A stretch of DNA of 64,000 bases from a virus, in the IMG/VR virus record IMGVR_UViG_3300025769_014365, positions 32,196 to 96,195 of that record. One strand, written 5' to 3'. The notes beneath the pieces are model-generated. The model was not told where the DNA came from, did not search any database, and saw nothing but the letters and a program-made list of their open reading frames with translations. Below, piece after piece: positions 4,544 through 27,081 of the stretch. The position numbers and the translations under genes are program-made. The stretch's first letter is position 1. Each line of letters opens with the position of its first letter.

Positions 4544-4692
4544 TAAAATTCCTTCTTTACACCAACGGTTGGGTTTTCAACACAACTGTCTGTGATTTCC
4601 TTCATTGTTCCTTTTTCTAAATTCACACTACAGGTTGCCGATGGTTTGATCCCGCAACCTACCACTAATACTAACACAATTAGATATCTCAT
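4543..4692 (-). CDS. Short predicted lipoprotein (49 residues)
   Basis: This very short gene fits exactly between two enzymes. It reads MRYLIVLVLVVGCGIKPS and then 31 more residues. An Arg and a hydrophobic stretch are followed by V-V-G-C at residues 10-13, which matches a signal-peptidase II lipobox and would leave a mature lipoprotein of about 37 residues with two further Cys (21 and 38). The ATG overlaps the upstream carbamoyltransferase stop as ATGA, and its TAA overlaps the epimerase start as TAATG, so both junctions look translationally coupled. Such lipoproteins can act in lysis (spanin-like) or superinfection exclusion, but nothing here decides the function. Confidence 0.7.
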   Translation of the reverse strand: MRYLIVLVLVVGCGIKPSATCSVNLEKGTMKEITDSCVENPTVGVKKEF

Positions 4693-6161
4693 CCTAGTAC
4701 TTTAACTCCGTACTTGTTGGTAAATGCTCGACCGTCCTCCCTGTCATTGACTATCGGCTGTCCTTTTATGTTGAGACTGGTGTTGAGCAGTATGGGACAC
4801 CCGGTCTGTCGTTTCCATTCTGTGAGCAGTGCGTGGAACCCTGGATTGTCCGTCTTACGCACGGTTTGAACCCTGGAAGTGTGATCATGGTGTATTATAG
4901 CAGGAAACTCTTTACCATGCGTACACGCCGCTGTAAACTGCATATAAGGGGTGTTTTTGACGGCTTTAGGCAGGGTAAAATACTGGTGTACATCCTCTTC
5001 TAATATGGCTGGTGCGAATGGTCTGAATTGCTGTCTCTTCTTTATGGAATTAACCAGATCCTTGATGTCCTCACCCCTGGGGTCGGCCAGCAGTGATCTA
5101 TTACCAAGTGCTCGTGGACCAAACTCTGCCCTACCACTGGCCACACCCACCATCCGGTTTTCCTTAAGTTCTTTTATCAGACTGTCCACGGGATATTCAC
5201 CTTCTATGTTGTGTCCTAGGAACGGATGCTCCCAATTCAAGTGGGATTTCTGGTGTGCGGCTATACACCCTAGGCTTGACCCCGCATCACCGGGATTGGG
5301 TATGATCCATATGTTGTCAAACAGGCCCATGTTTGCCAATACTCTGTTTGCGGCACAGTTCAGTGCCACTCCTCCGGCATACACCAGATTACGTGATCCG
5401 TATCGGCTGGCCCTGGCCCATAAGTCTGCCAGGCATTCTTCCGTGACCTCCTGTATGCTGGCCGCTATGTCCATCACATCGGCCTCCGGGTGCCAGTCAT
5501 TCAATCCTCTGTGTAAATTTTTCTTCAAACTGAACGGTGATTGGTTCACGAAATCGTTGTATATGTCTTCCTTGTATTTTGGCTTGCCATATGCGGCCAT
5601 GCCCATTAGGATGTATTCCTCTTCCGCAGGTTTGAGTCCACAACGATGTGTGAACGCACTGTAGAGTATTCCTATGCTGTGCGGATACTTGATGGTCTCT
5701 TTCCTTTCGATCCATACCTTGTCTGCTGTGGATATAGACACGGTGTCCCACTCTCCTATGGCGTCCACGGTCAGTATCGTGGCCCCTTCGTCCCGGAACG
5801 GTGAAGTGAAGTAGCCCGCCGCCGCGTGTGAGTCATGGTGCTGGACGTACTCGTCTATCTTTATGCCGAAGTGATCCAAGTGCCACTGTGGCATCTCTGT
5901 GTAGCTCATGGCAAGTCCATACTGTCCCGCGTAGAACTGCCTGGTCTTTTTTACCAATGGCTTCTCGTAGTACACCACCTTGTCGAAAGGTCCAAAGGTA
6001 CGTGCCTCGTCCACGATCCTCTGGTTGAGGTAGTGATCGTTCTTGACCTTGCTGTATCTCTCTGCGTGTGCGGCCCACAGGATCTCTCCTATGCCGGAAC
6101 TGTAGTCAACTACCGCCATGGCGGCATCATGATTCATGCAGTTGATGCCTAGTATTTTCAA
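4689..6161 (-). CDS. O-carbamoyltransferase (NodU/TobZ/CmcH family)
   Basis: This enzyme is expected to transfer a carbamoyl group from carbamoyl phosphate, through carbamoyl-AMP, to a hydroxyl of a sugar. The N-terminal Kae1-like domain has the nucleotide motifs GINCMNHDAA and HHDSHAA, and DAIGEWDT further on. The C-terminal YrdC-like part has EFGPRALGNRSLLADPR and QFRPFAPAIL, both strong family signatures. I place the start at a TTG at 6161 (490 residues): an AGGAGGA ribosome site lies five bases upstream, the protein then begins LKILGINCMNHD as relatives do, and the TTG overlaps the cupin stop. A longer frame from 6188 would run into the cupin gene and adds nine unlikely residues. Confidence 0.9.
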   Translation of the reverse strand: MKILGINCMNHDAAMAVVDYSSGIGEILWAAHAERYSKVKNDHYLNQRIVDEARTFGPFDKVVYYEKPLVKKTRQFYAGQYGLAMSYTEMPQWHLDHFGIKIDEYVQHHDSHAAAGYFTSPFRDEGATILTVDAIGEWDTVSISTADKVWIERKETIKYPHSIGILYSAFTHRCGLKPAEEEYILMGMAAYGKPKYKEDIYNDFVNQSPFSLKKNLHRGLNDWHPEADVMDIAASIQEVTEECLADLWARASRYGSRNLVYAGGVALNCAANRVLANMGLFDNIWIIPNPGDAGSSLGCIAAHQKSHLNWEHPFLGHNIEGEYPVDSLIKELKENRMVGVASGRAEFGPRALGNRSLLADPRGEDIKDLVNSIKKRQQFRPFAPAILEEDVHQYFTLPKAVKNTPYMQFTAACTHGKEFPAIIHHDHTSRVQTVRKTDNPGFHALLTEWKRQTGCPILLNTSLNIKGQPIVNDREDGRAFTNKYGVKVLG

Positions 6162-6481
6162 TGATTCCTCCTGCCGTCGAACACACAAAGGAAATGCAGT
6201 CCATCTGCTCCTGTTTCCACCCTATGGTGCACTCCGTCCTCGATTAGCACCACATCTCCGGCGTGTACATCATGCGGTTTATCATCGAGATATATTTTAC
6301 CAGATCCTTTCACAAAGTAATAGACTTCTTCCTGTCCTGCATGTTTGTGCCCCGAAGTACTTTTGTGGGGATTTAATTCTGTGGTGCTGACAACAAGATT
6401 CTTGAGGTGCGTGTTGTCCTTGACCACGTATCGTTCATCCTGTTTTACTATGTCACCTATGTTCTCTAGATTTATCTTCAT
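6158..6481 (-). CDS. Small single-domain cupin
   Basis: This 107-residue beta-barrel protein carries both cupin motifs. Motif 1 is H-K-H-A-G-Q-E-E-V-Y-Y (two His plus Glu as metal ligands) followed by VKGSGKIYLD; motif 2 is AGDVVLIEDGVHHRV with the final His. All four expected metal ligands are present. Small cupins like this include sugar epimerases/isomerases and sensor-type proteins. The start is taken at 6481, where ATGA overlaps the acetyltransferase stop; an upstream in-frame Met at 6526 would lie deep inside that gene. It is probably part of the sugar-modification operon, with substrate unknown. Confidence 0.8.
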   Translation of the reverse strand: MKINLENIGDIVKQDERYVVKDNTHLKNLVVSTTELNPHKSTSGHKHAGQEEVYYFVKGSGKIYLDDKPHDVHAGDVVLIEDGVHHRVETGADGLHFLCVFDGRRNH

Positions 6482-7041
6482 GCTATCTTCAATGCCTCTT
6501 TGGTCTTCTCCAGGTATTTCTCCCACTGCTCTAGCGTGATGTCGTACTCGAAGTTCTGTGTGTGTTCATTCTTCCTCAACAACTTGGCTCCGTTCTTGAT
6601 GTGGAACCGTTCCGCCATCTCTGTGAGTGGACTAAGGGTGATCAATCTTTCTATGTGATGTTCCCTCTTGAATTTCTTATATACTTCGTTCAATATATGT
6701 TTGCCGCCACCCTTCTTTCGTGCCCACACAGTGTAGGCTATGGCTATCCTGCCCACCAGGCCACCACGCAGTATGCTCTGGTTGTAGGCGTCATGCGACA
6801 TCAACGCCATCTCCTCCACGGATGCTGGCACGTCGTTGGTGAACGCTAGACATATGATCGCCGCAATTTCTCCCGCCTCGTCTCTTAACCCTAGTATTCT
6901 CTTGCCATCACTAATTCGGAAATCAACAGAAAGTTCTGGACGCACGGGATCCTCTGTGATGTCTATGTGTTCTAGATCCACAAGCTCAAATCGTGGATTG
7001 CGTGTGAACAGATCTTTTAACTTCTGTTTGATCTTTTCCAT
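6478..7041 (-). CDS. GNAT-family N-acetyltransferase-like protein
   Basis: This 187-residue protein has the order of elements seen in GNAT acetyltransferases: a strand pair around AIICLAFTNDVP, then GRIAIAYTVWARKKGGGKHI, where RKKGGGK matches the acetyl-CoA pyrophosphate loop (Q/R-x-x-G-x-G/A). A late strand and helix follow (RLITLSPLTEMAERFHIKNGA), with the typical 'helix after beta-5' reading. It could acetylate the amino sugar made by the aminotransferase downstream or a protein. The stop overlaps the cupin start (ATGA); the short basic-protein gene ends three bases upstream. The family assignment is moderately strong, the substrate is unknown. Confidence 0.7.
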   Translation of the reverse strand: MEKIKQKLKDLFTRNPRFELVDLEHIDITEDPVRPELSVDFRISDGKRILGLRDEAGEIAAIICLAFTNDVPASVEEMALMSHDAYNQSILRGGLVGRIAIAYTVWARKKGGGKHILNEVYKKFKREHHIERLITLSPLTEMAERFHIKNGAKLLRKNEHTQNFEYDITLEQWEKYLEKTKEALKIA

Positions 7042-7044
7042 GTG

Positions 7045-7149
7045 TTATTTGTATATGAAAGGATCCTTCTTCTTGAGTTCTTTCAATCTCTTCCTATACC
7101 GGATCTCTTCTCTGACCTTGTTCCACATCCTTTTAAACCATCTGATCAT
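7045..7149 (-). CDS. Very short basic protein (34 residues)
   Basis: This reads MIRWFKRMWNKVREEIRYRK followed by 14 more residues ending in DPFIYK. It is strongly basic and amphipathic, likely one helix. Evidence that it is a gene: ACAGGAGG stands seven bases before the ATG, the ATG overlaps the stop of the SGNH-like gene as ATGA, and the TAA ends three bases before the acetyltransferase ATG, so it fills the only gap in the operon. A membrane-active or nucleic-acid-binding peptide is conceivable. I do not recognise a function. Confidence 0.65.
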   Translation of the reverse strand: MIRWFKRMWNKVREEIRYRKRLKELKKKDPFIYK

Positions 7150-7943
7150 CTTTGTCCTCCTGTTATTTTTTCAAAAGTTGGTAACATTAATTTTACAGCA
7201 TCTGAGTGTGCTTGGTCAAGCGGATGTGTTGTGGCACGTTCATAATCGTTTAACAGTGCCCATTGGTTGAATCCCATCATCCTGTCCCCAAAAGAGTACC
7301 ATTTGTCAAGATCTATCTCGGTATGAAGTGCGTTCATCAATCCATCCATCTCCTTGTGGTGTGTAAACTTGTTGTAGAAAAGTGTGTTGTCAGCCAACGT
7401 GAAAAAGAATGGTATTCTTTTCTTCTCCAATATATTCTGTAGCCACGTGATCGATTTCCAACTGAGGTAAATCTCATGATACTCGTTGGCCGCATATTTG
7501 TACAGGCTATCTGCGAAATCACGCACACCAGTTTTTAACATACTATCTGTCCTCTTCTCCCAGATCTCCTGTTGTATTTGTGACTTGGCCAATTTGTCCA
7601 TGGCTTCATCATGTCCTGCCCTAGTGTCCCATGGCGACACAGAAACCCATCTATCACGTCCCAACATCTTGTGTTCTGGCATCGCCCAGTCATACCTAGA
7701 TGGGAAACTCCACATCACAGCCACCGCACCTATGTCTTGTGTATCGTGCACGGCAGTGAAAACACGCCTGGCTATGGCCTGATTGCCCAATCCTCCAACA
7801 GCAGTGCACACGTACTCCATGCCTGCGTGTTCACACAAGCGATGTGCCCAAGTTTTGCGTGATGGTGTGTTGCCGTTCACATCGTCACTAAGCTCATTGC
7901 CAAACGTGAAACTGCAACCACCTGCTATAAATTTCTTATTCAT
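7146..7943 (-). CDS. SGNH/GDSL-like hydrolase
   Basis: This 265-residue protein begins MNKKFIAGGCSFTFGNEL, in which GCSFTFG replaces the classic GDS(L) block and gives the nucleophile Ser11. GGLGN supplies the block II Gly, and THPLDQAHSDA near the C-terminus gives the HPxxxAH region with an Asp and His. SGNH enzymes of this type act as esterases or acetyl-transfer/acetylesterase enzymes on polysaccharides. A second member lies at 13032-13778 in the same operon, and they bracket four radical SAM genes. Its start overlaps the radical SAM stop by eight bases. Enzymatic activity is inferred from the triad only. Confidence 0.68.
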   Translation of the reverse strand: MNKKFIAGGCSFTFGNELSDDVNGNTPSRKTWAHRLCEHAGMEYVCTAVGGLGNQAIARRVFTAVHDTQDIGAVAVMWSFPSRYDWAMPEHKMLGRDRWVSVSPWDTRAGHDEAMDKLAKSQIQQEIWEKRTDSMLKTGVRDFADSLYKYAANEYHEIYLSWKSITWLQNILEKKRIPFFFTLADNTLFYNKFTHHKEMDGLMNALHTEIDLDKWYSFGDRMMGFNQWALLNDYERATTHPLDQAHSDAVKLMLPTFEKITGGQR

Positions 7944-9102
7944 ATATTCTTAAAACCTTATTTAAAAGGGGAAACATGTCTCCAAAATTTTCATTTCTGT
8001 ACCTATCTGTCTGCAGTATGCGTGCCTTCCTCTGTTCTCTGAGCTCGGGGGTGTCCCTGTCCGCCGCGTTCATGAAACGTATGCTGGGCTGGTAGTCAGT
8101 CAGCATGTGATATCTATCTGTAACAATCTCCTTGACCTGCCGCGGCAGTGTCTGTATGTTGAAAACGTCAGGATCAAAACAAGTGTTGACGTAAAAGAAT
8201 TTGGGCTGGTACTGTGCGACCCACAAAGCCATTTTGGCCCAGTTGAACACGTTGAATATCGATACTGTTGAACATATCTGGAAGTCCATGTTGTCTGTTT
8301 TCATTTCTTTGAATTTAACCAGATTTTGATTCACTTCCCTCCACTTGGCAGGATGTCTCTGGTACTCGAAAGGTGCCCCAACGTCGTCAATGCTGAACGC
8401 CACTTCCACGTGTTTGAAATAACTCCACAGGTCAAATATTTCCTGTGGTGGTAACTGCGTGCCGTTGGTGTTGTAGTGTATGTCTATTTTCTTGGCGTAT
8501 CCTTTCTCAACACAGTGCATCAAGATCTTGAAGTGATCTTTGATCATGAACGGTTCTCCTCCTGTGAACTCGAAATACTCCACGTGCTTGAGATCTTCCT
8601 GCAGGTCCTCGAAGAACTGTGGGTTACGCTTGGGCCATCCGCCCTCTTTTAAATTTTGCCTTGCTACGGGATTCTCACCGTAGTCCAATTCCTCCTGGGC
8701 CCATTTCGAAGAACTCCAAGATCCACATATCCTACACTTGAGGTTACACACGTTGCCCAACTTAAAGTCAATGAACTTCAGCGTTGGCTCGCTATCGGGT
8801 GTCCAGCCCGTCAGGCTCTTCTGCATCTTGTATATGCTGTTCTGTCTCTTGGACGTCTTGCCCGCGTCCTCCTCCTGCCAACAGCTCTGGCAACCTGCCG
8901 GGCGTTCTCCTTTACGGAACTGTTCGCGGAGATCGGTCATGTATGCCGTGTCCTGTATGGATTTGAGGCTCTGTTTATACACCTTCACGCCAGGCACACT
9001 GCCTTTGTACAGACAACACGGAGATGCGCCTCCATTAACATCCACTTCCAGGTGCGTCCATGGCAACGGGCACACGTTTGATTTTATATACTTGTCCACC
9101 AT
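7936..9102 (-). CDS. Radical SAM protein with N-terminal twitch-type Cys domain (copy 1)
   Basis: This 388-residue protein has two Fe-S regions. The N-terminal part has Cys11 (CPLPWTHLEV), Cys29-Cys30 and Cys71/Cys74 (GCQSCW), the pattern of a twitch (half-SPASM) domain that normally binds an auxiliary [4Fe-4S] cluster. The core then has CNLKCRIC (Cys119, 123, 126), the CxxxCxxC motif that binds the cluster cleaving S-adenosylmethionine, and FTGGEP for SAM binding. Placing the twitch domain before the core is the arrangement of N-twitch radical SAM proteins known from phages and marine bacteria; their substrates are not established to my knowledge. It overlaps both neighbours (8 and 19 bases). 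Confidence 0.88.
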   Translation of the reverse strand: MVDKYIKSNVCPLPWTHLEVDVNGGASPCCLYKGSVPGVKVYKQSLKSIQDTAYMTDLREQFRKGERPAGCQSCWQEEDAGKTSKRQNSIYKMQKSLTGWTPDSEPTLKFIDFKLGNVCNLKCRICGSWSSSKWAQEELDYGENPVARQNLKEGGWPKRNPQFFEDLQEDLKHVEYFEFTGGEPFMIKDHFKILMHCVEKGYAKKIDIHYNTNGTQLPPQEIFDLWSYFKHVEVAFSIDDVGAPFEYQRHPAKWREVNQNLVKFKEMKTDNMDFQICSTVSIFNVFNWAKMALWVAQYQPKFFYVNTCFDPDVFNIQTLPRQVKEIVTDRYHMLTDYQPSIRFMNAADRDTPELREQRKARILQTDRYRNENFGDMFPLLNKVLRIYE

Positions 9103-10448
9103 TCCAATGCTTTCTTGTTCTTGCGCAATATTTTCTTTATGTCTGTGCCACGTATGCGATCTAGCCTTTCGATCTCTGCCTTGCCGTCCTTTTGACCTTT
9201 CTTGTACACACCCTCGTCATAGACTAGTTCATTGTTCCTCTTCTGTCTCTGCATCTCATCCAACTGTGAGAAGAAATTGTTCAAATTCTTATTCTTGTAT
9301 TTGATCGTTTTCTCCCTCACGTCGTCTATGATCTCACTCATGATGTCGTACGGCATGAACAACGGTGCCATGGCATTGTCCTCTGAGAAGTTGAAGACCT
9401 GCTTGGTCAGGAGTTCTATATCCAGTTCATTGCTGAGCAAAACCATGTTTTCAAGATCAAACAATCCTGGCATGGTTATCGTGAGGTCCAACTGTATCCG
9501 CTGATGCTGGCCTTTTACATACTTCAAACCATACCTCATGTTTTCTAACCATTCCGAGTACTTCAATCCTGTCCTGATGTACTCTCCCACCTGCCCTGTA
9601 CCGTCAATGGACGCACAGATCTGGAATTGTGGATAGTGTTTCAGTATGTCATCAAACAAGTTTTTACCATAGAAGTTTATTCGGCTCATGTTGGAATTAT
9701 ATCTGGCCAGCACCCTGTCTGAGTATCCTAGTTCTTTGATCCGCTCCATTGCTGTCCAGTGTATTTTCCACATTAATGGCTCTCCTCCACACCAGTACAA
9801 CTCCGTGATCCTTTTTTGCTCAACCGCTGACGTGAACTCTTTGACCACTTGCTGATCATGAAATCTTTCTAATTTTTCTTTTATGTCTTTCCTACCCCAT
9901 ATCCTGTGGTTCTTGTAAACGTACTCTGGGTCGATTTGCACTCCCTCCACGCCCAGACCGTGCTTCTTGTTCTCGGCCTCCCACGTACTGCTCAACATGT
10001 CACCACACATCCTACAACTGAAGTTACAGAGATTAGAGAAACGATAATCAAAACTCTGCACCTTCATGCTCGTCGCACCAGTATCATCCGTAGTGTCAAA
10101 CGCTTCGTCCACTTTGTGCCTGTACAAGTGGTTGAAGTGTTGCCTGTACACTTGTTCGTTCAACAACTTGTCATTGCACACAGCACACTGAGGTATCTCC
10201 TCTCCTGCGAGCAACTTCTGTCTCACACTCCTCATGTATGGCGAGTTCCAATGCTCGTCGAGTGTTGATAGATTGAGGGTATCGTTGTGCCCCGAGGGAT
10301 CCATGGTGTCAATGTACTGTTTGAAGTTTGTCGATGATTCCCTAGAACTGCAACACAGTCTTCTTTCCATCTGCGGAGACAGGTATGTGTGGGTCCACGG
10401 CGCCATGCAGAAGGTCTTGTTGCCTTCTGAAGGTTTAATCCGTTTCAT
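9084..10448 (-). CDS. Radical SAM protein with N-terminal twitch-type Cys domain (copy 2)
   Basis: This 454-residue member has Cys14 (FCMAPWTHTY), Cys32-Cys33 and Cys88/Cys91 (CAVC) in the N-terminal domain, then the radical SAM motif CNFSCRMC (Cys141, 145, 148) and WCGGEPLM. The first domain keeps the same C-PW / CC / CxxC order as copies 1 and 3, so these three form subtype A. A long charged C-terminal extension (about residues 370-454) is not found in copy 1. It is coupled to copy 3 by a 14-base overlap and to copy 1 by 19 bases. The copies differ clearly in sequence, so this is an old paralogous array. Confidence 0.88.
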   Translation of the reverse strand: MKRIKPSEGNKTFCMAPWTHTYLSPQMERRLCCSSRESSTNFKQYIDTMDPSGHNDTLNLSTLDEHWNSPYMRSVRQKLLAGEEIPQCAVCNDKLLNEQVYRQHFNHLYRHKVDEAFDTTDDTGATSMKVQSFDYRFSNLCNFSCRMCGDMLSSTWEAENKKHGLGVEGVQIDPEYVYKNHRIWGRKDIKEKLERFHDQQVVKEFTSAVEQKRITELYWCGGEPLMWKIHWTAMERIKELGYSDRVLARYNSNMSRINFYGKNLFDDILKHYPQFQICASIDGTGQVGEYIRTGLKYSEWLENMRYGLKYVKGQHQRIQLDLTITMPGLFDLENMVLLSNELDIELLTKQVFNFSEDNAMAPLFMPYDIMSEIIDDVREKTIKYKNKNLNNFFSQLDEMQRQKRNNELVYDEGVYKKGQKDGKAEIERLDRIRGTDIKKILRKNKKALEWWTSI

Positions 10449-11718
10449 ACAATTCCTTCAATTCTGGAAAGGTATCCAGCATGTCCTCGTCTCGGATGTC
10501 ATCTAGCCTTTTCATCCAGCTCTTGAACTGATCTATGTGCTCATAGTTGTCCCTGCGCATCATGTAATCTATTCCTGACTGGAAACCCTTCGTGGCCCTT
10601 GTTAGTGGATCCAGGGGTGCCAGCCATTCCAAGTGCTTCTCTATCTTGGCCTTGATTTTCTCTTTGTATGACAGAGGGGCAAGGTCTATCCTCTGCCCAA
10701 AAGGAGACTGCAACAGATTGAAATTGAAATCCTGTGGTTTGAGCAGACCCATGTCCACCCAGTTCCTGTGGAAGTCAGTTATGTGCCAGGCATTGATAAG
10801 TCCCACAGTGGAACTGATGTAGAAGTCCACCTGCGGACACACTTCCAACATCCTTTTCCTGTTGGCCACCACGTCCTCCCATACTGTGCCTTTCCTCATG
10901 AGTTCTGCACGTTTTCCTTCCGCGTCTAGGCTCGCACCTATAGAGACCGTGTCAAACTTTTTCCACAATTCTAGCACGTCCATGTCCTTGAACTTTGTCT
11001 TGGTGAAATTGGTGTTGTATATCAGTCTCACGTGATACATCTTTCTCTTGTCCAGTTCTTTCAGTATCCTGTAGTGTTCCTCCATTATCAAAGGTTCACC
11101 ACCTGCGAAATAGAACTGTTCCACGTGATCGAACTGTGCCAACATCTGTTGCCATATGTCATCGGAATTTCTGCCAACACGCAATATCTTGGCATGTTTT
11201 GGAGGTTCACCCGCCAGTTTCTTATGGTCCTCGTACCAGTTTGAACTGAACCATGTGCCACAACTCCTGCAGGCCAGGTTACACAGGTTGCTGAATCGTA
11301 TGTCCCAATACTTGATAACGAAGTCTGCGCTTCCGTCCTCCTTGGTGTTGTCCACCATTCCTATGTTGTGTCCAAAATGCTTGTTGGAACTCATACGTAG
11401 ACTGAAGAATCCTGACTTCTCTTGATCATAACACTTAGTGCAGTTCTTACTCGGTTTGTTTGACAGCATGTTCTGTCTCAACTGCCTCATGTCTTTGCCA
11501 TTGAATACCGTCTCCATGGAATCTTCGTTGAGGTTGCCAACTGGGTATTCGTCTATGGCGAAACAACAGGGATAGGCCCGTCCATCGGGGAAGGCATGAA
11601 GATGCAACCATGGCATCATGCAGAACGTTTCACTGTCTATCAACAGCTCGCGCTGTCTGTCGGTCATGTCTTTTATTTTTAACTTCTCGGGCTCTTTGGC
11701 CCCATAATCATATGCCAC
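10435..11718 (-). CDS. Radical SAM protein with N-terminal twitch-type Cys domain (copy 3)
   Basis: This 427-residue member has Cys33 (FCMMPWLHLHA), Cys51-Cys52 and Cys93/Cys96 (CTKC) as auxiliary-cluster candidates and CNLACRSC (Cys146, 150, 153) as the SAM cluster, with AGGEPLI following. The start is a GTG at 11718 with AGGAG nine bases upstream; the first Met-equivalent is followed by AYDYGAKEP. It overlaps copy 4 by 11 bases. Of the three subtype A copies, its spacing between the CC pair and the CxxC pair (about 41 residues) matches copy 1. Confidence 0.88.
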   Translation of the reverse strand: MAYDYGAKEPEKLKIKDMTDRQRELLIDSETFCMMPWLHLHAFPDGRAYPCCFAIDEYPVGNLNEDSMETVFNGKDMRQLRQNMLSNKPSKNCTKCYDQEKSGFFSLRMSSNKHFGHNIGMVDNTKEDGSADFVIKYWDIRFSNLCNLACRSCGTWFSSNWYEDHKKLAGEPPKHAKILRVGRNSDDIWQQMLAQFDHVEQFYFAGGEPLIMEEHYRILKELDKRKMYHVRLIYNTNFTKTKFKDMDVLELWKKFDTVSIGASLDAEGKRAELMRKGTVWEDVVANRKRMLEVCPQVDFYISSTVGLINAWHITDFHRNWVDMGLLKPQDFNFNLLQSPFGQRIDLAPLSYKEKIKAKIEKHLEWLAPLDPLTRATKGFQSGIDYMMRRDNYEHIDQFKSWMKRLDDIRDEDMLDTFPELKELYETD

Positions 11719-13051
11719 GGTACCATTCTCCTATTATTGGGAAAGTCTTTTCAAAGTCTTTTCCTGATCGCTTGTCGTATTGGCTGTAGAACGCCTTGAA
11801 GTCTTTTTGTAACTTTTCCTGGGTGGCCGCACCCGCATGCGGTGTTTTGACAACATCCAAGTAATCTATCAGCCTCTGTGTTTGATTCACTTCCATGCCC
11901 TCCAGCCATTTCTCATGGGTATTTAAAAATTTTACCAAGTCCCCTTTAAATTTATTCCTCAGGTCGTCTGGTAAAACAAGCGGTGATTGAAAGCTCGGAA
12001 ATCTCAGTATGTTCAGTGTGTAGTTCAAACTCGGCCCATACACCTTGGCCGCATTTTTAAACCATACAATTTTCTCAAGGAATTCAGGTAATGTTTCCAA
12101 GCAAAGTGCGTTGATCGTTGCCATGTTGTGTATTTCAGAAGGAATTTTATCAACCATCATGTGTAGCAGATTGGAATGCCATGAACTGAAGTCAAGTCCG
12201 TCCCTGATGTATTCAGCCTGTGAGAAAGTCGCTTCACAACTGGTGTACAGATGGAAGTTTTTGAAATCTTTGAGTTTTGTTTTGAACCTATCGATTATGC
12301 TCTGCTTGGCACCCAAGTTGGAGTTTATCGCTATTCGCATGTTGGGATTCATTTTGTCGCCCTGTGTCTCTATCCAATCCAACAGTCTCCATAGGTTAGG
12401 TGACATCATGGGTTCTCCGCCAGTGATCCGTAATTCATCCAAACTCTTGTGTAGATCTGATTCCCACCATCGGTAGAACGCCTCCACGTAGGGATTGGTC
12501 TCGTCCTTCTTGTATGGTTCTGCGGAGTCGTGTGCGTGTGTGAAATGATCGCGCCCATCTGTGGCCAGCCCTGTGTATGGTCCTTGTCTCTTGATATTGT
12601 TTGCCCATGTGGAACTGAACGCGGGGTTACAGTATGTACAGGCAAAGTTACAGGTCCTGTCAAATGCTATCTCCAATGTTTTAAGATTCACGTTATCCTC
12701 ATAGGGTGATTCATAGGCCTTCTGTAGATCCTCGTTGGAGAAGATTTTTGATTTATATACCCTGTCACTGATGTTGTCCCTGGCTATGTCCTCGATCTTC
12801 CAGCAGTACTCACACCCTGCAGGTCTTTCGCCACACTGCATCTGTTTGCGTTCTGCTTTCTTTTGTTTTGTGTTGTGTATCGCACTCGGATTGGTCTTTA
12901 TCTCTTCCAGGTCTATCTTGTGTGGCAAAGGATGGTGACAACTGGTGGTCATGCCACTGCCAAGCCAGATGGTTGCGTTATACCACTTGGCTCCGCAAAA
13001 ACTCGCGCTCTTTGTGTCTAGTATTTTCTTTTTATACTCGAGATCTTCCAT
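11708..13051 (-). CDS. Radical SAM protein with variant N-terminal Cys domain (copy 4)
   Basis: This member (447 residues) belongs to a second subtype, B. Its N-terminal domain has Cys19 (FCGAKW instead of C-x-x-PW), a single Cys38 in SCHHPLPHKI where subtype A has a Cys pair, and Cys80/Cys83 (GCEYCW). The SAM motif is CNFACTYC (Cys134, 138, 141), followed by TGGEPMM. I start it at ATG 13051, four bases after GAAGGA; a TTG four codons upstream has no ribosome site. It shares the HNT...GERPAGC style of segment with copy 5, and an SGNH-like gene lies between the two. Confidence 0.86.
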   Translation of the reverse strand: MEDLEYKKKILDTKSASFCGAKWYNATIWLGSGMTTSCHHPLPHKIDLEEIKTNPSAIHNTKQKKAERKQMQCGERPAGCEYCWKIEDIARDNISDRVYKSKIFSNEDLQKAYESPYEDNVNLKTLEIAFDRTCNFACTYCNPAFSSTWANNIKRQGPYTGLATDGRDHFTHAHDSAEPYKKDETNPYVEAFYRWWESDLHKSLDELRITGGEPMMSPNLWRLLDWIETQGDKMNPNMRIAINSNLGAKQSIIDRFKTKLKDFKNFHLYTSCEATFSQAEYIRDGLDFSSWHSNLLHMMVDKIPSEIHNMATINALCLETLPEFLEKIVWFKNAAKVYGPSLNYTLNILRFPSFQSPLVLPDDLRNKFKGDLVKFLNTHEKWLEGMEVNQTQRLIDYLDVVKTPHAGAATQEKLQKDFKAFYSQYDKRSGKDFEKTFPIIGEWYRGI

Positions 13052-13778
13052 CTTTTCCTTCAAAATAATTTTTTAACTTGCTGTATTCGTCTTCCGGACA
13101 GACAATGTCACTCTCGAACATGATGTCCTTGACCCAATGGTAGTGTGCTATTGGCGGAGGGTGGGACTCATTCTTAATGTAATACTCCCTGTAATTATCC
13201 TCCGCAAACTCCGATAGCCCTTGCCTGTCTTTGTAGAAAGTGAATTTCGTCCAATCTATTTCATTGGTCAAGGCACGTTCACTTTCACTGTGAGGTTCGT
13301 CACGTAACACAAACTTGTTGAATATCATCATTGTGTAGGGTATTTTCTTTCTGTCAAGAAACAGTTGGGTCCTCAAAATCTGTTCCAACGTCCTATACTG
13401 TTGATGTTGCTCGTTAAGAAAATGCCTTTGATAGTACTCATGCTTTTCCGCAAGCCTGTGTCCTCCGAACCAGGTGCTCCATTTGTAATCGTCATCCCAC
13501 ACCCTGTAGGTTATTCTGCCATCTAAGTGATCGACGTCTTCATCCAAAGTTATAACTTCATATCTATCTACCCCTGACCACATGACGTACATGTGATCTA
13601 TGTTCTTGTATTTCATCGCACTGTTTATACAGGCACGAGCTATGGTCTCGTTGCCGGACGCGGATCTTCCGTGGTTCAGAATGTCTTTGCCACCGTTGAA
13701 CCATGGCACGAACTTGGGCCAACATGGCCATTTGTACCGCGTGAAACTGCAACCGTGCGCAATGGTCTTGTCAGGCAT
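13032..13778 (-). CDS. SGNH/GDSL-like protein, second copy
   Basis: This 248-residue protein starts MPDKTIAHGCSFTRYKW; GCSFT supplies the candidate nucleophile Ser, SASGNETIA the Gly/Asn region, and SHPPPIAHYHW near the C-terminus the HPxxxAH block with the catalytic His. It is a divergent relative of 7146-7943. In contrast to that copy, the Asp of a DxxH pair is not obvious (the residues before the His are Glu-Ser). It sits between the two subtype B radical SAM genes, overlapping both (20 and 8 bases). An esterase or a binding role on a glycan is possible. Confidence 0.62.
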   Translation of the reverse strand: MPDKTIAHGCSFTRYKWPCWPKFVPWFNGGKDILNHGRSASGNETIARACINSAMKYKNIDHMYVMWSGVDRYEVITLDEDVDHLDGRITYRVWDDDYKWSTWFGGHRLAEKHEYYQRHFLNEQHQQYRTLEQILRTQLFLDRKKIPYTMMIFNKFVLRDEPHSESERALTNEIDWTKFTFYKDRQGLSEFAEDNYREYYIKNESHPPPIAHYHWVKDIMFESDIVCPEDEYSKLKNYFEGKDGRSRV

Positions 13779-15141
13779 TCCTGCACTCCTCCCAGAACTC
13801 TTCCATTTCAGGGAAAATGTTCATGAAGTTCGTACTCCTCCTGCGATCGTGTTCGTTGAAGAAGGCATAGAAGTTCTTCTTTTGCTTGGTTCCTGTGTCC
13901 GCATTGTCTCGCCAGTATTTCAGATTACGTTGCATTTTCTGTATTTCAAAATCATTGAATCTACGGAATCTATTTTCATTGCCAGAATGCTTTCGCATGT
14001 ACTCGATGTTTTCCTCATGAATCATTTGATACGATTCCGGTAACAGTGTTATCTGTTGCCATGCTGGTTGCCTCAGCAAGGGTATGTCAAACCAGATCCG
14101 TTGGTAAGTTGTGCTGTATTTGCCTCGAAGTTCCAGTATCTTTTCTAAGAGTTTGTCAAGGCTGGTCACGCTGAGATTGTTGTATGTGCAGATGAATGTG
14201 ATCGAATTCCTACGTGGTATGCGATCAAGGAACTCCTCCACGTTGTCCATCATGTAGTTGAAGTCCAGCCCATTCCTTATGTACTCTGCTCTTTTGCCAA
14301 ACCCGTCAACACTGACAAACTGCATCATGTGTTCCACTTTGTCCTCCATGCAGATGTTCTTGGCCATGTTGAAATACTTTTGTTTGAGTTTTGGGTCAGC
14401 GGGACACATGTTGGACGTCACGTTCAAGTGCAGGTCATTCTTGGGATGGTCTATTATGTACTGTAATACCTTGTAGGTGTTGGGATCCATCATGGGCTCT
14501 CCCCCGGTCATACGGAAGTGTTTGAGATTCTTGTAAAGGGTGGGCCACCATCTCCAGAACGCTGTGACGTAGGGATTCTCTTCCCTGTTGGGTATTGGTC
14601 TGTTGCGTCCTTGGAAATGCTCTGGCATGTTGTGTGGTGGAGAAGTGGGGTATTCACCATAACGCTCTACTTCTTTGCCCCACGTGGTGGAAAACTGTGG
14701 TGAACAGTAACTGCATTTCAAGTTGCAGGCATGGTTGAAGTTGACTTCTACGTAACGTGGAGTCCATTTGTCATCCAGAGGGTTCTTGCGGATCTCGTCG
14801 AAATCCTGCATGGCCCATGGTTCGCCTGACCTGTAGTGCCTATCACTCATCTCCCCTGTCTTTTCTATGTTCCAGCAGTAGGAACAGCCTTCGGGCTGTT
14901 TGCCCTCCAACATCTCCTTCCTCTGTTGCAGTTTCTCCGCGGTGTTGTGCAGTCCCGCTGGATTGTAGTTGAGCTTGTTTGGATTGATGTTGTGCAGTGG
15001 TGGATGATAACAACTGTTCGTTAGTCCCGTGGGCAGGTGTAGTGACGTTTGGTTCCATTTGGCCAGACACATGGTTGGCGATATCGTGGCGAGTTTTTGC
15101 TTGGCCTTGTCAGCATCAGATTTGTAATCACTTGTACTCAC
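13771..15141 (-). CDS. Radical SAM protein with variant N-terminal Cys domain (copy 5)
   Basis: This 456-residue subtype B member has Cys25 (MCLAKWNQTS), a single Cys44 in SCYHPPLHNI, Cys86/Cys89 (GCSYCW), and the SAM-cluster motif CNLKCSYC (Cys139, 143, 146), followed by TGGEPMM. The start is a GTG at 15141 with AGGAG nine bases upstream, and it overlaps the glycosyltransferase-like stop by 14 bases. The C-SYCW and HNT segments are almost interchangeable with copy 4, so copies 4 and 5 are sister genes that probably act on related substrates, each beside the SGNH-like protein. Confidence 0.88.
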   Translation of the reverse strand: MSTSDYKSDADKAKQKLATISPTMCLAKWNQTSLHLPTGLTNSCYHPPLHNINPNKLNYNPAGLHNTAEKLQQRKEMLEGKQPEGCSYCWNIEKTGEMSDRHYRSGEPWAMQDFDEIRKNPLDDKWTPRYVEVNFNHACNLKCSYCSPQFSTTWGKEVERYGEYPTSPPHNMPEHFQGRNRPIPNREENPYVTAFWRWWPTLYKNLKHFRMTGGEPMMDPNTYKVLQYIIDHPKNDLHLNVTSNMCPADPKLKQKYFNMAKNICMEDKVEHMMQFVSVDGFGKRAEYIRNGLDFNYMMDNVEEFLDRIPRRNSITFICTYNNLSVTSLDKLLEKILELRGKYSTTYQRIWFDIPLLRQPAWQQITLLPESYQMIHEENIEYMRKHSGNENRFRRFNDFEIQKMQRNLKYWRDNADTGTKQKKNFYAFFNEHDRRRSTNFMNIFPEMEEFWEECRNA

Positions 15142-16051
15142 GGTCTTGTACTCCTCTGTTCCTGTGTTCGGGCATTGTGAATTTGAAGAAACGACTGTCT
15201 TCCGCTGTGAAATCCGCTATGGGCACGTCCAACCTCTGTTTGATGCTCTCGCCATACGCCTGGATCTCATCGTCTATGTTGTTGACATCTATTTTGCTCA
15301 AAAACACGTCTTTCATTCCATTGATGTCGCTGATGTCGTGTTGCTCATTGCTTCCTATCACTGTGTTGTAAAGTCCCATCCTGGCACCGAGGATTGCGTA
15401 TTTGCCGTTCTCTACGTCTGCCCCCACCGTCATCCAGGTGCTTAACACACGGAGGTTAGGAGGCCATATCGTTTTATTGAAACCGTTGGCCGGTATTGGT
15501 TTGCCCTTGTCAAGTCCCATCTTCACGCCCTCCCTGTATCCAGCGGTAAACGCCTGGTACTTTTCTGCATTTATCACTGTGGTCGAATAGCAGTTGTGTA
15601 GGTTTTCATGCGGCACTCCCCAACAGAAATCCAACTTGTTCTCTTCGGTGTCCGCGTTTTCGTGTGTCCTCATGGTCAGACAGGTCTGCTTGGGCCATCC
15701 TACTAATCCACCATTGCCGTACACCAACCCATTCACGTTGTTTTTAGCACGCCACCTATGTACCGCTTCCGGATTACTCTTGCTCCAATCCAACGTCTCG
15801 AGCAGGAATTTTTCGTCTATGACGTTGTCACCGTCCACCGAAATAAAGAAATCAGTCTCCGCCAGTTCCGCGGCGGCCTTGTGCGCAGAATCGAACCCCA
15901 CAACTCCGTCAACACGTTTGGCCCACGGCACCTTGTTTTTTAGATCTGCCCAATTCAGTTCCTTGTTGGGTTCTCTGAAACTTATGTACACGAAATCTAG
16001 ATCGCTGATCCTCACACGTTTGGACCTATCTGTGTTAAATGTGTTATTCAT
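15128..16051 (-). CDS. Putative glycosyltransferase with DxD motif
   Basis: This 307-residue protein looks like a GT-A-type transferase. An N-terminal strand (DFVYISFREPN), a helix rich in Ala (AHKAAAELAETD) and then SVDGDN, whose Asp73 and Asp75 form the DxD motif that holds the metal and nucleotide sugar, are followed by NNVNGLVYGNGG. A late FCWGVPHENLH segment may be the acceptor site. Its relative at 2299-3618 lacks the DxD. It starts 11 bases after the 107-residue gene, with AAGG ahead of the ATG. Target glycan is unknown; context suggests surface or virion glycosylation. Confidence 0.65.
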   Translation of the reverse strand: MNNTFNTDRSKRVRISDLDFVYISFREPNKELNWADLKNKVPWAKRVDGVVGFDSAHKAAAELAETDFFISVDGDNVIDEKFLLETLDWSKSNPEAVHRWRAKNNVNGLVYGNGGLVGWPKQTCLTMRTHENADTEENKLDFCWGVPHENLHNCYSTTVINAEKYQAFTAGYREGVKMGLDKGKPIPANGFNKTIWPPNLRVLSTWMTVGADVENGKYAILGARMGLYNTVIGSNEQHDISDINGMKDVFLSKIDVNNIDDEIQAYGESIKQRLDVPIADFTAEDSRFFKFTMPEHRNRGVQDREYK

Positions 16052-16062
16052 TTCTTTTCACC

Positions 16063-16386
16063 TTACTCGTACTCGAGTAACCATGCCTTCCCCCCATCCA
16101 CAATTCCTACGGGCCAATGTATGTCTCCATCCAAGAACACGTAACCTTTGTGTGGGCTCGATATCAACTCAGAATACTGTGTCTTTGCCTTGGGTACTTT
16201 TGGAGGTTTCACGATTACCTCTGTTTTTCCATCCGCGTAAGACAGTGTGTAGTGTTGGGTACCCCGTGACATTATCTCTAATTTCTTGTCCAGTGAGACT
16301 TCCACTTGTTTGCCTTCCACATCAACGAAATGCTTCTTGATCGGCCTGACCTTTAGATTGTCGAGTGCTTTAAAAATTTCTGACAT
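16063..16386 (-). CDS. Protein of unknown function (107 residues)
   Basis: I start this gene at the ATG at 16386 because AAGGAGAT stands just upstream; a longer frame reaching 16434 lies inside the neighbouring gene. The product is basic in the middle (KPPKVPKAK) and seems to be mostly beta strand, with a C-terminal part (YVFLDGDIHWPVGIVDGG) that reads like a small barrel or loop domain. There are no Cys and no membrane segment. It overlaps the preceding glycosyltransferase by 17 bases. I find no family motif. Confidence 0.6.
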   Translation of the reverse strand: MSEIFKALDNLKVRPIKKHFVDVEGKQVEVSLDKKLEIMSRGTQHYTLSYADGKTEVIVKPPKVPKAKTQYSELISSPHKGYVFLDGDIHWPVGIVDGGKAWLLEYE

Positions 16387-17164
16387 TGATCTCCTTGTCA
16401 AAGTAGTGCCATGGCCTCGACACACGTTTCTCACCCAGGTAAACGGCGTCTCCTGTCCTGTTTGGGAATAAGAAGTTGTTTTGGTCCCTGACCCAGTTTA
16501 GATTGTTCACGCCCGGCTTATGGTGCAGGAACTTGAACCAATCATAATTTATGAGCTGTTGGTTCGTGGGGTCCAGTATCCTGTAGGCCAACGCGAACAC
16601 GACATCAGTGCTTGGGTAGGTGTCATGACAGTTTATCAACATGTGCTCCTTGACTTCGTTCCACTTGTATGTGATTTGTTCCGCCAGTTCAAAGAATCTC
16701 TTTGCCCTCTCCGATCTGCGGAAGTACATCAGACCGTTGTATATGTTGGGCAAATGATTCCTCTCGAACAGAGACCTGTAGGGCGTGTGCTTGATCACCC
16801 GATCCTTGTAGTCCCTGCAGTCAACACTGAACACAATGTCATGTTGCCACAGATGGTACCACCACCAGTCCGTGTTGGTCGTCCACAGCATGTCTGCCTC
16901 GAGTTTTATCGTGTGTTCGAACGGCGTCCACCAACAGGCCTTGTGCTCGTTCGCCCATTTGATATCATGGTCTTTGGCGTCATCTTCGTCCAGGACCTGC
17001 ACCACATCGACCGCTTCGTGTTCGAACTTGCTTTTCTCATCGGTGATTACACACACCTTGTTTTCACGATTCCATTTTTTTATGGACTTGGCCAATCTTA
17101 TAGATAATTCCACGTAATCGGTGGTATCGTTGTTCTGGGCGAACCACAGGAATCCTTTAGACAT
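16370..17164 (-). CDS. Glycosyltransferase, GT8-like
   Basis: This 264-residue protein has the order of a GT-A transferase: an N-terminal strand (GFLWFAQNND), CVITDE, then TIKLEADMLW with the acidic pair Glu89-x-Asp91 as the likely metal site, and IYNGLMYFRRSERA, a common GT8-type stretch. The C-terminal HHKPGVNNLNW resembles the family's H-x-G-x-x-K/N end motif, which binds the donor phosphate. It is paired with a second similar gene (17157-17906) that it overlaps by eight bases. Acceptor and donor are unknown. Confidence 0.7.
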   Translation of the reverse strand: MSKGFLWFAQNNDTTDYVELSIRLAKSIKKWNRENKVCVITDEKSKFEHEAVDVVQVLDEDDAKDHDIKWANEHKACWWTPFEHTIKLEADMLWTTNTDWWWYHLWQHDIVFSVDCRDYKDRVIKHTPYRSLFERNHLPNIYNGLMYFRRSERAKRFFELAEQITYKWNEVKEHMLINCHDTYPSTDVVFALAYRILDPTNQQLINYDWFKFLHHKPGVNNLNWVRDQNNFLFPNRTGDAVYLGEKRVSRPWHYFDKEINVRNF

Positions 17165-17906
17165 TGGCTATCTCCTTGTTCAAGACGTGTACATCTTGGT
17201 TGACCGTGTGCATGATCTTGTCATCTCCCCGCCATGCCAGTCCGTTGGAACTGATAGACAACACCTCACAGTCAGGTGGAAGTGTGGGTAATCTCATCGG
17301 CAGAGTCTCGTATTCCATGAATCCATTTATCTGTTCCAACGCTATCGCAAAAGCGTAATCGTTGCGGAAATTCTTGCTGTAGATCCTGTAGATCTCATTG
17401 AAGTAAGGGTAATACTCCTTTACATACCTGACCATGTCGAATATCATTTTGGCTTTTTCAGTTTTCCGGAACACCAACACCGTGGCCCATACCATGTCTA
17501 TCATGCTCCAACGCCTGAGATCAAAACTATTACGTCCGGTCAGGTCATAGGCCTGCTTGGATACGAGGAAATCATACTTGGTGTCCATGAATTGCCTTAG
17601 GTTGTCAGTGAATGGAAGGTAGTCTATGTCCATCACCAATGTGGTGTCATACGGAGACAGGTCATATGACATGTGCCTGTCCACGTTGCGCCATTGTTTG
17701 CCGTTCTTGGTGTTGCCCGTCTCTGGCTTGATGAACCTGTAATCCACCTGATCTAATGATCCCAGATGCTTGTGCGTGTGTCGATCGGTGACCACCGTCA
17801 CGGGCAGTCTCAGATTGGACTTGACCAGTGCTACACAGCGTGTGAGTATCTTATGGTATTTGACATCTGACGTGTCAAAGCAGTAAAGTAGAACTCCCTT
17901 GGTCAT
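17157..17906 (-). CDS. Glycosyltransferase, GT8-like, second copy
   Basis: This 249-residue protein has an N-terminal GVLLYCFDTSDVKYHK, TVVTDRHT, then TTLVMDIDYLPF with the DxD at Asp93-Ile-Asp95, and a region near 140 (MVWATVLVFRKTEKAKMIF) that aligns with the NGLMYFRRSERAKRF stretch of the neighbouring gene. The end motif of GT8 is weaker here. Its GTG/ATG region overlaps the 111-residue gene by one base. The two adjacent genes probably act one after the other in building the same glycan. Confidence 0.7.
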   Translation of the reverse strand: MTKGVLLYCFDTSDVKYHKILTRCVALVKSNLRLPVTVVTDRHTHKHLGSLDQVDYRFIKPETGNTKNGKQWRNVDRHMSYDLSPYDTTLVMDIDYLPFTDNLRQFMDTKYDFLVSKQAYDLTGRNSFDLRRWSMIDMVWATVLVFRKTEKAKMIFDMVRYVKEYYPYFNEIYRIYSKNFRNDYAFAIALEQINGFMEYETLPMRLPTLPPDCEVLSISSNGLAWRGDDKIMHTVNQDVHVLNKEIANV

Positions 17907-18241
17907 CAGTCATCTCTTTTCTCAAAACTCTCAGCCAACTGGTGATACGCACCCAGCGCCTCTTGGTTCCTGGCCACCAGTATGTCCAAGAATTCACTGG
18001 CATCCTTTATCTCCACAGGGTTCTGGTTGCTGTCCAACACGAAGAAGTTGTCGTGCCTGCTTTTGAGTGTGTTTACGAGATTGATTGTCTCAGCATCTGC
18101 CCGGAATATGTGTTCGTTGTACACAACCACCATGCGCGAGTGAGCCTTCTCCAGGGCGTTGCGCTTGGCCAGTGCCCGGTCATAGGATAGTCCGGACTGT
18201 CGTTTCAGTTCCTTCAGTCGCTCGAGTTCTTTGCTGTCCAT
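17906..18241 (-). CDS. Small helical protein beside the fibre genes
   Basis: This 111-residue protein starts with a charged helix (SKELERLKELKRQSG) and continues with a short beta segment (MVVVYNEHIFRADAETINLV) and a C-terminal helix (ARNQEALGAYHQLAESFEKR). Small proteins of this layout sit next to adhesin genes in T4-like phages, where some act as fibre assembly chaperones; that role is only a positional guess. About 50 bases upstream separate it from the first fibre gene, and no late promoter is obvious in that gap. Confidence 0.6.
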   Translation of the reverse strand: MDSKELERLKELKRQSGLSYDRALAKRNALEKAHSRMVVVYNEHIFRADAETINLVNTLKSRHDNFFVLDSNQNPVEIKDASEFLDILVARNQEALGAYHQLAESFEKRDD

Positions 18242-18290: not shown

Positions 18291-19241
18291 TTATGATTGG
18301 GTGTTGCTTACTTCTGCGTTGGAACTGACCCTGATCGCTGAAGCCAATCCCTCGGTGTTGTTGGGGTATCCTTCAGTCAATGTCAGTGTCATGATCGGCG
18401 CCTCGTTGGGGTTGGCCGGCACACCGTCTGTGTTGCCTGCGGTGTAGGTGGTGTCCGCCGCTGGGTCTGAGGCTATCTGCTTGATGGTCATCGTGACAGC
18501 AGTTCCCACAGCCGCGTTCAGTTTGGCCTGTATCTCCAGTGTGTCTGAAGTGTAACCCGCGTTGTCAGAAGTCAGTTTCAGTATCGTGGTGTATGATGTT
18601 GTCAGGTCATGGAATCCGTTCGCCAATCCATTGGTGGTCAGTGTTTCGCCTGATCCCGATCTGGTCGAAGCATGTGCCTTGATGTCTATGTTGCCCACTG
18701 CTGTGCAGAGGTCATTGAACACAGTGTCCTTGAGGCCGTCGATCCCCGTGGTAGCCGATGGCGTGACCCTGATGTATCCGCCTGCGTTGAAGTAGTGTCT
18801 CATGGTGTCCGCAGATGCGAACGTCACTGATCTCTCAATGGTGGAAGTCGAGTTCCACGTGGCCGAGTTCGAACTGGCTCCCGCCGCCGCTGTCGATATC
18901 GCAGTGGCCGATGGTGATCCCGCCGCTACCGCGGCCGCCAGTGTGGCCAGGTCCGTCTCCAGTGCGGCCTTGATCGCAATGGTGTCACCCGCTGAAACCG
19001 ATGTAGAAGTGATGCTTGAATTTGTGTGATTGGCTATGTTGTCCAGACCAGTGAACAGGCTGTTCCACTGTGATGCCTGTACCGTGTTGCCCGCAGATAC
19101 CGTGGATATCGACGCTTGTCCAAGACCGTACTCTCCAGATCCTGTGCCCGCGAAATGGTTGTAACCGTACGGACTGACCGCACTGCCTACGAATGTGTTG
19201 TATTCATCATCTAATATTGTGTCACCTGCTTGATATGCCAT
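18291..19241 (-). CDS. Predicted virion protein, Ala/Ser/Thr-rich
   Basis: This 316-residue protein is rich in small residues (for instance AATLAAAVAAGSPSATAIS) and is poor in Lys and Arg, as are fibrous phage structural proteins. The start MAYQAGDTILDDEYNTFV shares the MAY-start of the other fibre genes. The middle (TFASADTMRHYFNAGGYIRVTP) is a beta-rich segment, and the C-terminus ends in TLTEGYPNNTEGL. No enzymatic motif is visible. It follows the 401-residue fibre protein by seven bases. A fibre or baseplate accessory role is inferred from composition and place. Confidence 0.6.
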   Translation of the reverse strand: MAYQAGDTILDDEYNTFVGSAVSPYGYNHFAGTGSGEYGLGQASISTVSAGNTVQASQWNSLFTGLDNIANHTNSSITSTSVSAGDTIAIKAALETDLATLAAAVAAGSPSATAISTAAAGASSNSATWNSTSTIERSVTFASADTMRHYFNAGGYIRVTPSATTGIDGLKDTVFNDLCTAVGNIDIKAHASTRSGSGETLTTNGLANGFHDLTTSYTTILKLTSDNAGYTSDTLEIQAKLNAAVGTAVTMTIKQIASDPAADTTYTAGNTDGVPANPNEAPIMTLTLTEGYPNNTEGLASAIRVSSNAEVSNTQS

Positions 19242-27073: not shown

Positions 27074-27081
27074 TATTTATT
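27074..27081 (-). promoter_or_regulatory. Late-promoter-like sequence AATAAATA
   Basis: On the minus strand AATAAATA, one change from the T4-type TATAAATA, lies at the very end of the giant structural gene, a few bases before the ATG of the 242-residue gene. It is so close to the start codon that a transcript would have almost no leader; this weakens the case for a working promoter. Confidence 0.25.

Follow-up and report, generated by a model that had tools for sequence, protein, structure and literature searches.

An array of five N-terminal twitch (N-twitch) radical S-adenosylmethionine (rSAM) proteins and two SGNH-type proteins occupies positions 7146–16051, on the minus strand, of a 64,000-nucleotide stretch of viral DNA. 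This stretch, referred to below as the window, corresponds to positions 32196–96195 of the 96,195-base virus record IMGVR_UViG_3300025769_014365. The array is real and conserved and represents a variant form of phage glycan-modification clusters. Its substrate is probably a glycan. The favoured reading, held tentatively and at somewhat less than an even chance, is that a large T4-superfamily phage uses the array as a cassette for tailoring glycans, remodelling host lipopolysaccharide (LPS) sugars in the cytosol and thereby altering the phage receptor. If true, phages would have a hitherto undescribed means of changing the sugars on the surface of bacteria, and the array would supply novel enzymes for sugar modification. 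The virus is a marine relative of giant phages: the portal protein encoded in the window is nearest to those of large T4-superfamily phages, with ∼48–53% identity (Sinorhizobium phage Phosso, Agrobacterium phage Atu_ph07, Pseudomonas phage PA5oct and ∼350-kb Escherichia phages), and a baseplate hub and an SbcC-like protein are also encoded.

Family membership was judged with the NCBIfam model NF033640 (N_Twi_rSAM), whose curated cut-off is 170 bits. The five array proteins, R1 to R5, are all full-length matches scoring 292–408 bits. Subtype A comprises R1 (7936..9102; 368 bits), R2 (9084..10448; 305 bits) and R3 (10435..11718; 408 bits, the top score); subtype B comprises R4 (11708..13063; 292 bits) and R5 (13771..15141; 329 bits), the commonest of the five. 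These genes, like all others of the cluster described below, lie on the minus strand. The CxxxCxxC motif, typical of the SAM-binding 4Fe-4S cluster, is present in each protein and is 100% conserved across 61–116 distinct homologues per family, as are the cysteines of the N-terminal domain, which number five in R1–R3 and four in R4 and R5. Full conservation of the cluster cysteines was observed in 61 homologues of R2, 78 of R3, 79 of R4 and 116 of R5; for R1, eight cluster-type cysteines and Cys277 are invariant in 62. Cys277 lies outside the clusters and is a possible hydrogen donor. The N-terminal pattern of subtype A is CX17CC...CX2C. In subtype B it is CX18C[HY]H...CX2C, the second cysteine of the CC pair being replaced (CHH or CYH), and the four remaining cysteines would be enough for one auxiliary cluster. 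A second model, PF13186, is matched above its cut-off by R1 and R3 and below it by R2, with no match for R4 and R5. A preliminary description of this DNA had listed five such proteins of two subtypes, each with CxxxCxxC and a cysteine-bearing N-terminal domain, and had asked whether the core cysteines are conserved; the family scores, the distinct patterns and the complete conservation bear it out.

The phylogeny agrees with this division. In a tree of 98 rSAM sequences R1, R2, R3 and R4 are each monophyletic (support 0.992–1.0), R5 is likewise monophyletic except for one bacterial-bin sequence, and R4 and R5 group as one clade. As each of the five lines is monophyletic, the array is not the outcome of a recent tandem duplication; R1–R5 are five ancient paralogues that were fixed early and kept side by side. 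The genes are tightly packed: from the SGNH-type gene S1 to the putative glycosyltransferase (GT) gene GTa all seven junctions are overlaps of 8–32 bases, as expected of the coupled operon that had been proposed.

A divergent sixth N-twitch-like rSAM, R6 (54258..55274, minus strand; PHROG 14086), lies apart from the array and was absent from the preliminary list. It scores 167.7 bits against NF033640, just under the cut-off, and overlaps the end of a GIY-YIG-like endonuclease gene (55264–55674, named by eye); the glycan genes are all a long way off. In another phage record, of 137,583 bases, six more N-twitch rSAMs are found among replication and nucleotide-metabolism genes with no array (loci L175 and L176, 66001–106000 of the record).

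The structural comparisons place these proteins in a broad setting. A model of R5 (predicted local distance difference test, pLDDT, 85) has Foldseek matches to SkfB, the best, and to BlsE, viperin and anSME. These are rSAM enzymes in general and would not fix the reaction; among PDB sequences the R5 profile matched MoaA alone, weakly (E 0.007). The array proteins share with BtrN, BlsE, SkfB and anSME an rSAM barrel and an auxiliary-cluster domain, the latter putative in the array, SkfB and BlsE being top fold matches of R5. In enzymes of that type the twitch or SPASM domain, where present, follows the barrel, whereas in the array proteins the auxiliary domain precedes it. NF033640, to which all five belong, is a family name to which no reaction is assigned, and no reaction for N-twitch rSAMs was found reported in the open-licence literature; in the array five fixed paralogues of this family stand side by side.

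The rSAM and SPASM enzymes often mature peptides, and the resemblance to SkfB, together with a PqqD-like gene near one bacterial relative, would suit a system akin to those for ribosomally synthesized and post-translationally modified peptides (RiPPs), in which the array cross-links or epimerises a peptide or a tail protein. This is very unlikely: the array genes overlap, so there is no room for a precursor gene, and none occurs among the open reading frames of the array. Nor was a gene resembling a RiPP recognition element recognised beside the array rSAMs, the small proteins beside the GTs are devoid of a conserved core-peptide pattern, and the Wzt and FkbM fusions of bacterial relatives, described below, point to glycans.

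The recurrence of R1–R5 in nearly the same order has been observed in dozens of uncultivated phage contigs of up to 344 kb, and is more than chance. The phage loci considered here are those that matched the queries best, and some of the contigs nearly duplicate one another. Scans with R5 returned 69 loci with a single sequence and at least 590 matching viral stretches with an alignment. Of the R5-anchored loci, 74 include GTa and extend 6.5 kb or more downstream; 71 of these encode at least three N-twitch rSAMs and 43 at least five, both figures being lower bounds set by locus length. In 58 such loci anchored on GTa instead, GTb was present upstream in 57, GTc in 53 and tail-type genes in 50, with one or more N-twitch rSAMs downstream in 49 and five in 8. 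The most conserved part of the locus runs tail protein, h17906, GTc, GTb, small gene, GTa, and persists down to ∼42–46% GTa identity. After this backbone comes a variable cassette of rSAMs, GTs, SGNH proteins and carbamoyltransferase. With the GT backbone constant and the downstream genes varying, the locus is therefore a constant tail–GT module carrying a variable tailoring cassette, of which the five-rSAM array is the most elaborate common form. In a few phages a gene for a protein resembling Coq7/AOX (ubiquinone-biosynthesis) diiron proteins, named by eye, lies inside the array (L095 and L108, between R3 and R2, and L114).

Freshwater relatives possess the same backbone and other cassettes, some with a GT2299-like gene only. 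In loci L067–L070 the backbone is followed by R5, the sole rSAM of the set, by SGNH-like proteins and a kinase-like gene, and by NDP-sugar pyrophosphorylase-like, RuBisCO-like and cyclitol-synthase-like genes, all three named by eye; this content suggests a phage-made cyclitol or unusual sugar. The lineage of the window is absent from the 50,697 INPHARED phage records as far as tblastn searches show: R5, GTa, GTb, GT2299, the tail-type gene str18291 and a distant relative of GTa all went unmatched, and matches to R1 and R3 were limited to two Vibrio phages and one unannotated marine virus. A genome scan with R3 identified five contigs of metagenome-assembled genomes (MAGs); where the flanks are long enough, the gene order is that of the phages, and these contigs probably represent phage DNA that ended up in the MAG bins.

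The presence of 5–13 NF033640 matches per phage record, extra copies being scattered, and the hypervariability of this region in T4-like marine phages (PMC7029224) would also be expected if the rSAM paralogues were unlinked morons piling up in a plastic region with no shared pathway. It is improbable that such accumulation would hold five orthologous lines in an almost unchanged order across deep divergence with their cysteines fully conserved. The preliminary description had regarded single copies scattered away from their partners as damaging to a common pathway. Such copies do exist, in this genome and in others; they do not sink the idea because the array genes are separate conserved orthologues.

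The backbone itself includes three putative GTs. GTa (15128..16051) is GT2-like, with D73-G74-D75-N76 invariant, and its family gives weak PF00535 matches in 5 of 12 homologues (best E 0.012), so that the GT named in the preliminary description is retained in a weaker form. GTb (16370..17164; PHROG 1903) is GT8-like: its profile matches the GT8 enzyme glycogenin-1 (E 0.001 over 100 residues). GTc (17157..17906) is related to GTb (hhalign 98.8%) and has a conserved DxD at 93–95. Neither GTb nor GTc matches Pfam GT8, and searches of PDB sequences with the GTa and GTc profiles gave chance matches only. Between GTb and GTa lies h16063 (16063..16434), a small, fast-evolving protein with no family match, possibly an acceptor or a structural protein; nearly all loci carry a small gene in this slot, mostly encoding ∼85–210 residues, whose sequence type differs by clade. 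On the other side, between the tail gene and the GTs, the small conserved protein h17906 (17906..18241) was found in 41 of 45 full-length GTa-anchored loci. The backbone is headed by str18291 (18291..19241), a Ser/Thr-rich (26%) presumed virion or tail protein with no PHROG match, and a gene of this type precedes the GTs in almost every locus. Next to it, str19249 (19249..20454) encodes a tail-fibre-like structural protein with partial PHROG matches to virion structural and tail fiber families.

This arrangement is the strength of the main rival explanation, according to which the phage's own tail-fibre or adhesin proteins (str18291, str19249 or the small GTb–GTa protein) receive a glycan that is assembled by the GTs and tailored by the rSAMs. 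The tail gene and the GTs belong to the best conserved portion of the locus, no exporter, flippase or membrane GT was seen in the cluster, str18291 is Ser/Thr-rich, and genes for an Asp/Asn-hydroxylase and other oxygenase-like proteins occupy upstream slots. There is also a precedent, as mycobacteriophages glycosylate their capsid and tail tube (Freeman et al. 2023, as cited in PMC12619734). The Ser/Thr richness of str18291 was rejected as proof of O-glycosylation, other structural proteins in the window being equally rich, and the bacterial and Vibrio phage relatives point instead to surface polysaccharide or LPS. Glycosylation of the virion is thus considered unlikely, if less so than the other rivals.

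The N-twitch rSAMs are rare in bacteria, being found in 2 of 296, 3 of 398, 1 of 78, 2 of 297 and 2 of 197 genomes of the groups sampled, query genomes included. Where their neighbourhoods are readable, these mostly have a glycan setting. Genome G384 harbours four tandem N-twitch rSAMs together with rmlD, an RmlC-like epimerase, an ABC-2 exporter, WbsX and TylF, on a contig that also bears ordinary chromosomal genes; there a single 854-residue frame (L172, 8579–11143) joins ABC_tran, Wzt_C, SPASM and Radical_SAM domains. In G735 an FkbM methyltransferase–rSAM fusion has GT2-like genes close by, and the neighbourhood also includes PqqD-like, HPr-kinase-like and NTP_transf_5 genes; in G1046, from the family of a Pelagibacter MAG, a subtype B copy stands among GT-like, epimerase, RmlC-like and SGNH-like genes. 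Three bacterial N-twitch rSAMs (L172 4235–5959, L173 10420–12198 and L174 6944–8590) carry an insert of ∼150 residues in the rSAM domain, which may be beta-rich and bind carbohydrate.

A comparable block exists in Vibrio phages K566 and K567 (OZ196521, OZ196593), where, as in the array, several N-twitch rSAMs are accompanied by GTs. K566 encodes four N-twitch rSAMs interleaved with two GT8s, above the cut-off, and one GT4-like gene (161.5–169.3 kb of the record). An LpxC homologue (E 6.5e-19) and a gene annotated as the lipid A palmitoyltransferase PagP are 3–4 kb away (L265, 15733–16999). In contrast to the array, the stretch shows no SGNH or carbamoyltransferase gene, and its rSAMs are not one-to-one orthologues of R1–R5. 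The glycan substrate is supported by the bacterial rml/ABC cluster, by the Wzt and FkbM fusions and by the GT8/LpxC/PagP context of K566. It is also backed by the locus itself, through the GT8-like and GT2-like neighbours, the carbamoyltransferase of the TobZ/NovN type, the epimerase and the DegT and Gfo/Idh proteins predicted there. The tail linkage is compatible with both host LPS and tail-fibre glycosylation; host LPS is ranked first because the Wzt fusion and the proximity of LpxC and PagP in K566 lean towards it. The preliminary description had envisaged one pathway acting on a glycan or a small peptide. Several distinct enzymes are indeed present, most likely for a glycan in view of these bacterial and K566 contexts, and the small peptide is disfavoured by the lack of a precursor-like gene.

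The substrate of the array, the order of its steps, their chemistry and their purpose are what we infer from this setting. GTa, GTb and GTc would be soluble GTs acting on the cytosolic side on a sugar acceptor, most likely a host lipid A-core or O-chain precursor. R1–R5 would then carry out different C–H steps, for example epimerisation, dehydrogenation and deoxygenation, on sugars or nucleotide sugars; the SGNH proteins, the carbamoyltransferase and the epimerase, aminotransferase and oxidoreductase set would attach or take away small groups and produce the sugar donor. The product would be exported by the host's own exporters, and the altered surface, no longer a receptor, would prevent superinfection and keep progeny from being lost on debris. 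Being linked to the tail genes would keep the fibre and the altered receptor matched. By hydropathy the enzymes of the cluster are all soluble, none having a clear membrane segment. GT8-type enzymes of the LPS core, of which WaaJ and WaaO are examples, reside in the cytosol as peripheral proteins, and the host MsbA exports what they make; for this reason the absence of membrane segments and of an exporter from the cassette fits the proposal. A more specific version is rather doubtful: that the five rSAMs act in sequence on one glycan from the conserved GT trio, in a multi-step C–H tailoring by which phages of an uncultivated large-phage lineage rewrite their own receptor sugar.

Several points weigh against remodelling of host LPS. 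The identity of the acceptor is deduced from indirect evidence, and the GTa and GTc assignments are weak. The tight and deeply conserved link to a tail-protein gene suits virion glycosylation equally, and proximity is modest evidence alone because T4-like phages often carry islands of sugar genes next to their tail genes. The Wzt–rSAM fusion was seen once, in a single assembly, and might be an artefact of sequencing. The K566 rSAMs, besides their lack of orthology to R1–R5, adjoin a PagP that has no match among PDB sequences, its label resting on the annotation of the record.

The SGNH-type proteins are accessory to the array. The AlphaFold2 model of S1 (7146..7943; pLDDT 83) was compared with the PDB by Foldseek, and the top matches are all SGNH/GDSL esterases (CE2, TesA; E 9e-5); S1 has no Pfam or NCBIfam match, and its profile gave chance matches only among PDB sequences. 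Its conserved motifs are GxSFT, GxxN and THPLD..H. S2 (13032..13778), in a variable slot between R5 and R4, is linked to S1 by hhalign (99%). Of the catalytic set expected in SGNH hydrolases (the Ser, the block II Gly, the block III Asn and the block V His), the candidate residues Ser11, G51/N54 and H240 are invariant in S1, and S2 is alike. Block III reads MW[ST]F, with no usual Asn, and the Asp of DxxH is absent from S1. The SGNH calls of the preliminary description consequently stand, by fold for S1 and by profile for S2, with a triad that is not canonical; hydrolase activity is plausible for both. In other phages the S2 slot contains S2, a different SGNH protein of ∼200 residues or nothing, and S1 is divergent or missing in other clades. 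By motif count an SGNH gene lies downstream in 54 of 74 R5-anchored loci versus 11 of 58 GTa-anchored loci. The array had been expected to recur with its SGNH partners: the recurrence is confirmed, and the SGNH pair is not integral to it.

In order of transcription the cluster reads tail-type proteins, h17906, GTc, GTb, h16063, GTa, R5, S2, R4, R3, R2, R1 and S1, followed by GNAT-like, cupin, carbamoyltransferase, epimerase, GT2299, DegT and Gfo/Idh genes. The GNAT-like protein (6478..7041; no Pfam match, named by eye) is conserved and the usual neighbour of S1, and the cupin (6158..6526) matches PF07883. The O-carbamoyltransferase CARB (4689..6188; PF16861/PF02543) has both Carbam_trans_N and Carbam_trans_C domains, is conserved at ≥97% in 246 of 499 positions and has NovN, GdmN and TobZ as PDB relatives. 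There follow an NAD-dependent sugar epimerase/dehydratase (3584..4543; PF01370), GT2299 (2299..3618), which is GTa-like by eye with no family match and has a relative directly after GTa in freshwater phages, a DegT/DnrJ-type sugar aminotransferase (1236..2357; PF01041) and a Gfo/Idh/MocA-type sugar oxidoreductase (371..1246; PF01408). Sugar-nucleotide enzymes and GTs, the latter weakly assigned, thus share one phage cluster.

This gene content is reminiscent of a pathway for a diffusible small molecule resembling an amino-sugar antibiotic, as proposed for a jumbo cyanophage carbamoyltransferase/halogenase cluster. A TobZ/NovN/GdmN-kind carbamoyltransferase, DegT, an epimerase and twitch-type rSAMs are all known from aminoglycoside-type pathways. 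Iyer et al. offer such an alternative for a different cyanophage cluster (PMC7824862). Its improbability here stems from a GT backbone tied to tail genes, from the lack of any recognised exporter or resistance gene in the cluster, and from a carbamoyltransferase that is not universal (34 of 74 R5-anchored and 2 of 58 GTa-anchored loci, counts limited by locus length).

Parts of this picture have precedents. Nishimura et al. (2017) recorded 12 rSAM genes in one 183-kb marine T4-like virus genome (PMC5332604), and pelagimyophages have rSAM cassettes in a host-recognition region whose GT8 enzymes were argued to alter host O-chains (PMC7029224). These viruses resemble the present one in their many rSAMs and adjoining host-recognition region; the genes are listed there, whereas paralogue order, partner genes and substrate were not found worked out. 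In East Australian Current viromes rSAM, RmlD and GT genes are prominent together (PMC7150976). Iyer et al. (2021) described host-surface and capsular polysaccharide clusters of jumbo cyanophages, proposed to pre-empt other phages, and also a cyanophage carbamoyltransferase cluster (PMC7824862). Epimerases, cupins, GTs and carbamoyltransferases are common to those clusters and to the array locus; the word 'radical' does not occur in the text of that paper, whereas in the array locus no other kind of enzyme is as numerous as the rSAMs, which come after a tail-tied GT backbone. The open-licence literature yielded no paper with this gene order, paralogue structure or the bacterial fusions. The five fixed paralogues, their named partners, the Wzt and FkbM fusions and the K566 block turn rSAM-rich marine phages into a testable pathway.

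Elsewhere in the window, a search for the T4 late promoter TATAAATA gave two matches, neither at the array and with no excess. A single open frame of 4281 residues (27077–39922) presumably encodes a giant tail or fibre protein. Upstream of the tail-type genes an Asp/Asn beta-hydroxylase (21669–22337) adjoins a glycine-rich structural protein (22330–23754) with a C-terminal Hint-like domain, named by eye, and in other phages the hydroxylase slot accommodates various 2-oxoglutarate-oxygenase-like proteins.

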